From Kyrpidia tusciae DSM 2912 (GTDB lineage: Bacteria; Bacillota; Bacilli; Kyrpidiales; Kyrpidiaceae), in the NCBI RefSeq assembly GCF_000092905.1, contig NC_014098.1, forward strand, positions 62,001 to 126,000: a stretch of DNA of 64,000 nucleotides. The letters are read 5' to 3'. Positions 39,191 to 43,670 of the stretch are shown here, one piece after another. The first letter of the stretch is position 1, and each line of letters begins with the position of its first letter. The notes beneath the pieces were generated by a model. It was not told where the DNA came from and did not search any database. It worked only from the letters and a program-made list of their open reading frames with translations. The translations under genes and the position numbers were made by a program.

Positions 39191-39369
39191 AGAATCTCAC
39201 CCAGCGAGAGTTGGCAGATCGGATTCATCTCTCGGTTGCGGTCCTCGGCGCTATCGAGCGGGGGGCCAAGACACCGTCACCGCATGTGTTGCGGGCCATC
39301 GGGGAAGCCTTGGGGATCGACGAAGAGGAGTTAGTCGGCGGCATCCAGGGTGGAGGTGATACCGTTTGA
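39145..39369 (+). CDS. yazB: Small XRE-family helix-turn-helix protein (YazB-like)
   Basis: 74 aa, a lone Cro/C1-type [62 protein letters not shown]. The position between folK and dusB matches yazB of Bacillus. GTG 39145 lies within folK; the end overlaps the dusB TTG by 4 bp. DNA targets are unknown. Confidence 0.9.
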
Positions 39370-40361
39370 TCAAAACCGATCTCCGCATTGGCGATGTGCA
39401 GTTGGATAACAATGTGATTCTTGCTCCCATGGCGGGGGTTTCCAATCCCGCCTTTCGCATTCTGGCGAAAGAAATGGGGGCGGGGATGGTCTGTGCTGAA
39501 ATGGTGGCAACTAAAGGGATCGTGAATGCGAATGCGAAAACGTTGCGCATGCTCCATATTTTGCCGGACGAGCATCCCGTGAGCCTCCAGTTGGTGGGGA
39601 GTGACCTGGATTCTATGGTGCGGGCCGCCGAAACTGTGGGGACCGCCACCAACGCGGATGTGATCGATATTAACATGGGTTGTCCGGTGTTGAAGATTTA
39701 TAAGAACGGTTCCGGCGCGGCGTTGGCCCGGGATCCGGACTATGCCGCTCGAATCGTACGAGCGGTGGTGCAGACGGTGGACAAGCCAGTAACGGTGAAA
39801 TTCCGTAAAGGTTGGGATGACGACCACGTCAACGCGGTGGAGGTTGCCCTGGCTGTGGAGGAAGCCGGTGCAAAAGCTGTCACGGTTCACGGGCGAACGG
39901 CTAAACAGATGTATAGCGGTCACGCCGATTGGTCGATCATTCGGCAGGTCAAAGAGGCGGTGCGAATTCCTGTTATCGGCAATGGAGACGTATCCACCCC
40001 GGAAGCGGCCGTGCAAATGCTGCAAGAAACTGGATGCGACGGTGTCATGATCGGCCGGGGCGCTCTGGGCAATCCCTGGATTTTCCGAGAAACGGTGCAT
40101 TATCTCAAGAAGGGGCAGAAGCTTCCCCCACCAGGCGTCGATGAAAGGATTCGAGTGTGTCTTCGACATCTGGAGTTGCTGGTGGCAGAAAAGGGGCCTT
40201 GGATCGGCGTCCGCGAAATGAGAAAGCATGCTGGCTGGTATATCAAGGGGCTGCCGGACGCGGCATTGATGCGTCAGCAGTTAAACGAGGCAGAAACCGA
40301 AGAGCAGATGAGGAGTTTGTTAGAAGGATATGCCGAACGATTGACCCGCCGGGTCGGCTGA
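39366..40361 (+). CDS. dusB: tRNA-dihydrouridine synthase
   Basis: FMN-dependent reductase of tRNA uridines. 331 aa. [35 protein letters not shown] (catalytic Cys), [33 protein letters not shown] and [21 protein letters not shown] identify the DusB group. The TTG start at 39366 overlaps the previous stop and has TGGAGGTGA at 39350-39358. It ends the folate-linked operon. Confidence 0.95.
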
Positions 40362-40364
40362 CGG

Positions 40365-40394
40365 GTATGCCGCTGCCCGGCCCGGTACATACTA
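40365..40394 (+). promoter_or_regulatory. Sigma-G-like (forespore) promoter
   Basis: GTATG (40365-40369), 18 bp, CATACTA (40388-40394): a full match to the sigma-G pattern GHATR-N17/18-CATNHTA, with the start expected about 34 bp before the downstream GTG codon. Confidence 0.65.
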
Positions 40395-40434
40395 GGGCGG
40401 TCAGATTGAACAAACCTTCCTCTGATGGGAAGGG

Positions 40435-41382
40435 GTGACCACCCTGAGACATGTTGTCAGTGTGAGTCTGGGCTCGTCTCGACGGAATCACCGCGTGATC
40501 ATGGAATGGGACGGCCAGATGTTGGTCATTGAACGAATCGGTACTGATGGGGATGTCCGCCGTGCCATGGCTGCCATTCGGGAATGGGATGGACGAGCGG
40601 CTGCCATCGGGCTGGGAGGGATCGACCGTTATCTGTACGTCGGCGGAAGACGGTATGTGTTCCGGCAAGCCGAGCGGCTGGCGCGCTTGGCTCACAACAC
40701 GCCAGTTGTGGATGGCAGTGGTCTAAAACACACGTTAGAACGCCGGGTGGTCCGTCAGCTGGCGGAAGATCCGCAGGTCGCACTGCGCCGGAAGAATGTT
40801 CTTCTCGTGAGTGCGGTGGACCGTTTTGGTATGGCTGAAACCCTGGTCGCTGAGGGGTGCCGGGTGACGTTTGGAGACCTCATGTTCGGCCTCGGTATCC
40901 CTGTGCCGCTGCATTCTCTTCAAACGCTGAACCGAATGGGCCACGTCCTCGGTCCCGTTGTTACACAACTGCCGATTCACTGGCTGTATCCCACCGGGCA
41001 GCGGCAGGAGCAGATTCGCCCTAAGTACCGCCGAGTGTATCGGAGGGCGGACGTGATCGCCGGGGATTTTCATTATATACGCCGGCATCTGCCCGAAAGG
41101 CTGGAAGGTGTTTGGATCCTTACGAATACGGTGACCCGGGAAGATGAGCAATTGTTGCGTCGGCGGGGCGCGGGAGGGCTCATCACCACCACACCTGAAT
41201 GGGAAGGGCGCTCGTTTGGCACGAATGTGCTGGAGGCTGTTTTTGTCGCCTTGGCGGGGGAACCTCCTGCACTGCTCGGGTCTGGGCGCAACCTGTACCC
41301 GGATGAGTCTTTCTACCACTACTGGTTGGAGCGGCTGGGAGTACGTCCGAGGATTACTTGCTGGGGGGCGGGCGTTGATTGA
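40435..41382 (+). CDS. Uncharacterised conserved protein (family often labelled quinate 5-dehydrogenase)
   Basis: 315 aa. Homologues in spore-forming Firmicutes are annotated as quinate 5-dehydrogenase, a label I recall but consider unsupported: no clear Rossmann GxGxxG is seen at the expected place. Conserved-looking blocks are HVVSVSLGSSRRNHRV, IERIGTDGDVRRA, AIGLGGIDRYLYVGGRRYVFR, TPVVDGSGLKHTLERRVVRQLAED, VSAVDRFGMAETL and RADVIAGDFHYIRRHLPE. GTG 40435 follows GGGAAGGG. A sigma-G-type promoter lies immediately upstream, suggesting forespore expression. Soluble; no signal peptide or membrane helix. Function unknown. Confidence 0.8.
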   Translation: MTTLRHVVSVSLGSSRRNHRVIMEWDGQMLVIERIGTDGDVRRAMAAIREWDGRAAAIGLGGIDRYLYVGGRRYVFRQAERLARLAHNTPVVDGSGLKHTLERRVVRQLAEDPQVALRRKNVLLVSAVDRFGMAETLVAEGCRVTFGDLMFGLGIPVPLHSLQTLNRMGHVLGPVVTQLPIHWLYPTGQRQEQIRPKYRRVYRRADVIAGDFHYIRRHLPERLEGVWILTNTVTREDEQLLRRRGAGGLITTTPEWEGRSFGTNVLEAVFVALAGEPPALLGSGRNLYPDESFYHYWLERLGVRPRITCWGAGVD

Positions 41383-41408
41383 CGATCTAAACATTTCGTT
41401 CGTATAAT
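41379..41408 (+). promoter_or_regulatory. Sigma-A promoter P1 in the greA leader
   Basis: TTGACG (41379-41384), 18 bp, TATAAT (41403-41408), overlapping the end of the preceding gene. A second isolated TATAAT at 41496-41501 closer to greA could be a further -10 but lacks a good -35. Confidence 0.6.
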
Positions 41409-41435: not shown

Positions 41436-41470
41436 AAGCACTGTCAACCTCCCATGTGTTGACGGTGCTT
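41436..41470 (+). terminator. 13-bp hairpin in the greA leader, possible attenuator or terminator
   Basis: AAGCACTGTCAAC (41436-41448) pairs with GTTGACGGTGCTT (41458-41470) with one G-U, loop nine bases, followed by TCTAG. It lies about 20 nt after the expected P1 start and 154 bp before greA. It could terminate P1 transcripts early (a short leader RNA) or serve as attenuator. Confidence 0.5.
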
Positions 41471-41623: not shown

Positions 41624-42100
41624 ATGTCGGAAAAAGAAGTGCTGCTAACCCCTGGGGGGTTGCAGAAGCTGGAAGAAGAATTGGAATATCTTAAATCGGT
41701 AAAACGCCGTGAGGTGGCTGAACGCATAAAAACGGCTATCAGCTACGGGGATATCAGTGAAAACTCGGAATACGAAGACGCAAAGAATGAACAAGCCTTT
41801 GTAGAAGGGCGTATCATTACCTTAGAGAAAATGCTGCGCAACGCGCGGATCATTAAGGATAGTGATGTGGATACCGATGTGGTGAGCATTGGGTCGACCG
41901 TTTCCCTTAAGGATCTCGAGTTTGGTGAGGTGGTGGAATACACCATCGTCGGCTCTGCGGAATCGGATCCGGTAGAAAACCGGATCTCCAACGAATCTCC
42001 CGTGGGCCGGGCGCTGCTTGGGCGGCGGGTGGGCGAAGTCGTCAATGTGGAGGTGCCGGACGGCGTGCTCCAATATGAAATTTTACAGATTAAGAAGTGA
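41624..42100 (+). CDS. greA: Transcription elongation factor GreA
   Basis: Rescues backtracked RNA polymerase by stimulating transcript cleavage. 158 aa. N-terminal coiled coil [50 protein letters not shown] carries the acidic tip residues (DISENSEY), followed by the FKBP-like domain. The start is ATG 41624 with AGAAGGAG at 41608-41615; the longer frame is leader. lysS follows 28 bp downstream. Confidence 0.97.
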
Positions 42101-42110
42101 ACCGATTTAA

Positions 42111-43670
<1,560 letters not shown>

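Follow-up and report, generated by a model that had tools for sequence, protein, structure and literature searches.

Acyl-ACP reductase (AAR) works by a cysteine mechanism. Two further systems that resemble the proteins described here, the thioester-reducing TAD of carmabin (9e50) and the N-terminal domain of PigE (4ppm, NF053554), are parts of larger enzymes, and AroE (PF01488) has a two-domain alpha/beta plus Rossmann arrangement. Linked to our gene by name only, since it carries the same annotation name, is the Deinococcus csCOG deino9.00587, an uncharacterised, low-variability group that occurs in 33/33 Deinococcus genomes and is shared with Thermus (PMC9425974). Kyrpidia tusciae DSM 2912 is a spore-former with a published genome (PMC3236038), which forms a single contig of 3,384,766 bp. 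Within the window (the whole stretch of 64,000 nucleotides that was analysed), a gene labelled quinate 5-dehydrogenase lies between dusB and greA. Our preferred reading, to which we assign a probability of about one half, is that its product is a conserved enzyme of metabolism, or a subunit of such an enzyme, with an AAR/shikimate-dehydrogenase fold, and that the gene was rewired to the forespore in the K. tusciae lineage. The features of the locus are as follows (window coordinates).

39366..40361, + strand, dusB, conserved upstream neighbour (a dusB cluster accompanies the gene at 76 loci)
40365..40369, + strand, −35 element GTATG of a sigma-G-like promoter, from sequence (GT[AT]T[GA] in 7/7 distinct same-layout loci)
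40388..40394, + strand, −10 element CATACTA after an 18-base spacer, from sequence (CATA[AC]T in 7/7)
40430..40435, + strand, Shine-Dalgarno AAGGGG, 8 bases 5' of CTG 40444, from sequence (same in G002 and G003)
40444..41382, + strand, family gene, 312 aa, predicted AAR/shikimate-dehydrogenase-like fold, CTG start by homology
41379..41408, + strand, strong greA promoter of sigma-A type, TTGACG-18-TATAAT, which overlaps the stop codon of the family gene (11/12 matches)
41437..41469, + strand, 12-bp dyad AGCACTGTCAAC/GTTGACGGTGCT within the leader of greA, read from the sequence
41624..42100, + strand, greA, conserved downstream neighbour by locus comparison
42117..43670, + strand, lysS, conserved downstream by locus comparison

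The first-pass annotation had described a 315-residue protein, and an open reading frame of this length does exist (40435-41382) if GTG 40435 is taken as the start. However, homologues begin with ATG, GTG or TTG at the codon equivalent to 40444, and because these starts and the spacing of AAGGGG suit CTG 40444, whereas the spacing is unsuited to GTG, this CTG, which is retained in four Kyrpidia-type genomes, is the probable start codon of a slightly shorter product. Further downstream, the AGCACTGTCAAC/GTTGACGGTGCT dyad is a possible terminator or attenuator; our hairpin scoring covered loops of up to 8. The RNA leader hairpin CCTTCC/GGAAGG was no more stable than shuffled sequences (z −0.75).

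At many Bacillota loci the order is dusB, a 188-residue HTH protein, the family gene, an AAR-like gene, greA and lysS. The commonest setting of the family gene is an operon with an HTH regulator and an acyl-ACP-reductase-like gene. Upstream of the regulator gene, in both Bacillota and Actinomycetota, lies the dyad TGTRCACA-N4-TGTGCACA, positioned at −20 to −60 of the HTH start (for example at L050, L084, L069 and L196, all outside the 64-kb window). The half-site TGTGCACA was found in 50/61 distinct upstream regions, as opposed to 0 of 55-105 before five other genes. As the Actinomycetota dyad follows a TTAAAAT-like −10, the HTH regulator is likely to be a repressor; its C-terminal domain resembled generic Rossmann-like folds only (Z of 7.5 or less). 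A literature search yielded nothing direct on the operator sequence or on the annotation. We also considered a forespore promoter before the HTH gene of some Clostridia and rejected it, the high sigma-G scores having come largely from the operator itself (TGTGCACATAATA and the like). At some loci a 320-aa protein, devoid of a Pfam or NCBIfam match, is encoded between dusB and the HTH gene (L083:315-1274). K. tusciae-type Bacilli have neither the HTH gene with its operator nor an adjacent AAR-like gene at this locus.

What stands before the gene in K. tusciae is GTATG-N18-CATACTA (40365-40394), which had been put forward as a complete match to the sigma-G consensus, correctly placed ahead of the gene. 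Both points held on inspection of the sequence: the coordinates and the 18-base spacer are exact, the site begins just past the dusB stop, and its −10 ends 49 bases 5' of the probable start codon. Counted over the whole genome (3,384,766 bp), the strict pattern GNATR-N18-CATNNTA has 18 occurrences and its reversed control 7, so that ∼2e-4 exact matches would be expected per 110-bp upstream region. A second site, GCATGCCGTCGGCCCGCCGGGTACATACTAGGGGCGGT, near-identical to this promoter around the −10, was noticed at G000:C1:713001-713030 (L123), upstream of a small CxxC-containing protein.

A search of the regions upstream of homologues, a check that the first-pass annotation had proposed, recovered the site as GT[AT]T[GA]-N17/18-CATA[AC]T in 7/7 distinct dusB-gene-greA loci of the K. 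tusciae-type lineage, 32-56 bases 5' of the gene, as opposed to ∼125 distinct homologues outside this layout, where CATACT occurred upstream in 3 and with a −35 at 17-18 in 0. By a sigma-G criterion of −35 GNATR, a spacer of 17-18 and −10 CATNNTA, the match is exact in K. tusciae and G002; in 5/7 site-bearing loci the last base of the −10 departs from CATNNTA. Because the local chance of the site is 1-9% per distant locus, the case for a promoter rests on its recurrence. The proteins of the site-bearing loci are 55-77% identical to that of K. tusciae, and the retention of the site before 7/7 homologues, some of them only 55-58% identical, favours function. In a tree these loci fell into two fully supported clades, compatible with one or two origins of the site, and Bu12 (L007), of the same class, has kept the HTH gene and operator and does not have the forespore-type site. 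SASP genes are present in 7/7 Bacilli genomes examined (K. tusciae, five relatives and Bu12); with a small and noisy matrix learned from the SASP upstream regions of these genomes, the K. tusciae site scored at p ∼0.045 and the conserved site was mostly non-significant in the others.

That the matrix does not favour the site is one of the arguments for the best-surviving alternative, in which the gene is a purely vegetative housekeeping gene and GTATG/CATAC a dyad operator or non-sporulation promoter that resembles a sigma-G site by coincidence. This alternative, which we hold possible though rather unlikely, also gains from the perfect inverted repeat that GTATG/CATAC forms in 4/7 loci and from the family being core in Armatimonadota, which lack SpoIVA. 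Against a dyad operator, (i) the spacing is either 17 or 18, (ii) the left arm drifts (GTATA, GTTTG) and is unmatched by the right arm, and (iii) the conserved T after CATA[AC] falls outside the dyad, so that a promoter fits better. We consider sigma-G-type forespore control of the gene in the K. tusciae-type lineage fairly probable, sigma-G being the factor that would read the GTATG/CATACTA site.

As to the product, no meaningful match to Pfam or NCBIfam was obtained with the K. tusciae protein or 32 relatives (33 members in all), a sequence search of the PDB gave nothing meaningful, and phage and plasmid collections contained no match. Fold prediction and structural search had likewise been suggested at first pass. 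Among solved structures an acyl-ACP reductase came closest to an AlphaFold2 model built from the 33-row alignment (pLDDT 89.9), with Z 14.1 for 251 residues at 4.5 Å, and the four AAR entries (Z 13.2-14.1) stood above other rows near 9-10, which places the model in the AAR fold; the carmabin TAD scored Z 13.1, glutamate dehydrogenase Z 10.2, and shikimate dehydrogenase 2hk9, below both AAR and glutamate dehydrogenase, Z 9.0 over 212 residues.

Despite this likeness, with an E limit of 10 TIGR04058 matched none of the 33 members, and among 133 homologues no column held cysteine in more than 54%; because no cysteine is conserved, the AAR-type cysteine mechanism is unavailable to the family. The missing nucleotide loop noted at first pass was confirmed in so far as the standard GxGxxG is absent: the equivalent stretch is LLVSAVDRFGMAETL, and this loop-equivalent SAVDRFGMAE retains one Gly of the NADP-loop motif. 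The sequence blocks that had been quoted as repeats are indeed present, yet they are single-copy conserved motifs. Across the 133 homologues ∼40 residues are at least 98% identical and cluster in near-invariant motifs (DGSGLK, DRFG, GD, YPTG, TNT and TTTP...GRSFGTN), as expected of an active site, and these motifs argue for a real one. We infer that the family protein binds a dinucleotide or an acyl/aldehyde substrate.

The partner of the family is the AAR-like gene. A reductase-like cluster was present in 81 Bacillota loci, and the AAR-like gene directly follows the family gene in many Armatimonadota and Actinomycetota loci. Within a sample of 398 genomes of the phylum, 190/192 reductase-positive genomes held the family gene (odds ratio 101), the two exceptions being incomplete assemblies. 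The partner bears GATGSIG and ACMAET, matches solved AAR/PigE-type chains, reaches the PigE and TIGR04058 profiles at scores under their equivalog cut-offs, and matches PF01488, 'Shikimate/quinate 5-dehydrogenase'. Because profile comparison of the family with this partner revealed no sequence homology (hhalign probability 0.3%), the likeness of the two proteins is structural only and shared ancestry rests on the model. In K. tusciae an AAR-like gene is found elsewhere, at ∼593 kb (G000:C1:593293-594363, L161), with no evident forespore promoter found there. It follows a class-III-type aminotransferase gene and an SRPBCC/cyclase-like gene, a layout repeated in G037, G016 and G053 that hints at a route from acyl via aldehyde to amine.

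Tight co-occurrence and adjacency with the reductase, together with a related fold from which the conserved cysteine is absent, could describe a non-catalytic pseudo-enzyme that scaffolds or regulates the AAR-like enzyme. We regard this as unlikely, given that the very strong conservation of polar motifs suggests catalysis. Moreover, 100 genomes hold the family gene without a reductase at E 1e-60, a number that speaks against such a scaffold and counts against our preferred reading as well, as do the absence of sequence homology with the partner, the distant position of the K. tusciae reductase-like gene and the outcome with the SASP-trained matrix.

Much less probable is a true quinate/shikimate 5-dehydrogenase, as annotated. 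The resemblance to the shikimate dehydrogenase fold (Z 9.0) and the match of the adjacent partner to PF01488 speak for it, whereas the 33 members are without a meaningful HMM match, an acyl-ACP reductase structure is plainly the better fit, the family lacks the NADP loop consensus, and the neighbouring genes are not aromatic-acid genes. The odd label may plausibly stem from the PF01488-matching neighbour and would be right at most at the superfamily level. The name, which the first-pass annotation had found unsupported, has no HMM behind it, but the doubt that the protein is a dehydrogenase went too far, as the predicted fold is AAR/shikimate-dehydrogenase-like.

It had also proposed an overlooked spore protein and a phylogenetic profile by which to examine the idea. 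The profile showed wide occurrence in non-spore formers, an outcome that the first-pass annotation had itself named as refuting the idea: the gene was present in 143/151 Armatimonadota genomes (95%), of which 0/151 had SpoIVA over the cut-off, and in 20/149 Actinomycetota genomes. In the 398-genome sample of its own phylum the gene was present in 290 (73%) and SpoIVA in 336, with 271 genomes holding both, 19 the gene only, 65 SpoIVA only and 43 neither, an association inflated by kinship. The family is not restricted to spore formers, and a protein dedicated to spores and lost from lineages that form none, for which the 271 co-occurrences (inflated by shared phylogeny) could be cited, is refuted family-wide by the Armatimonadota counts. 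The Actinomycetota genomes with the gene and the 65 SpoIVA-positive genomes without it also speak against this explanation, the least probable of all.

Taken together, our preferred reading is that the family gene would encode a two-domain protein of the cytosol, a conserved enzyme or part of one, which, in its commonest setting, would act with an AAR-like, cysteine-dependent thioester reductase, the HTH regulator binding TGTRCACA-N4-TGTGCACA and thereby presumably controlling the operon. From the locus of K. tusciae and its relatives among the Bacilli, regulator gene, operator and neighbouring reductase gene are gone, and the gene is alone under a sigma-G-type promoter; production of the protein in the forespore is thus probable, where it would be a metabolic enzyme, not a structural spore protein. 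Of all this, the likeness of fold, the distribution, the operon and co-occurrence, the operator and the conservation of the promoter are shown by the sequences, whereas the binding of a dinucleotide or acyl/aldehyde substrate, joint action with the reductase and the reading of the site by sigma-G are inferred. More tentatively, and with considerable doubt, the two proteins may form an acyl-thioester/aldehyde system of at least three bacterial phyla, placed under a dedicated HTH repressor in Bacillota and Actinomycetota, the first protein of which was recruited to the forespore in one branch of Bacilli. If this were true, the forespore would gain a reaction of metabolism that model spore-formers are not known to have. 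Should the forespore promoter prove real, the gene would be a clear example of an old metabolic gene drawn into sporulation, a change visible by comparison with regulator-keeping loci such as Bu12. Operon, operator and co-occurrence are concrete handles on the reaction of the family, and for a gene present in 95% of the sampled Armatimonadota and 73% of the sampled own-phylum genomes, the lack of any Pfam or NCBIfam model leaves a considerable gap in annotation.

Compared with known systems, the family model may share with AroE the two-domain arrangement (Z 9.0), and differs from it in having neither the HMM match nor the nucleotide loop nor the aromatic-pathway context. Unlike the carmabin TAD, the structural score of which is near that of AAR (Z 13.1), and unlike the PigE N-terminal domain, to which the partner gene is most closely related, the family protein is not part of a larger enzyme; the CMAET cysteine of PigE-type chains and of the partner has no counterpart in the family. 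Along its entire chain the family model is structurally closest to the cyanobacterial long-chain AAR (TIGR04058; PDB 6jzq); the protein is 13% identical to this AAR and differs from it in having no TIGR04058 match, conserved cysteine or GATGSIG-type loop.
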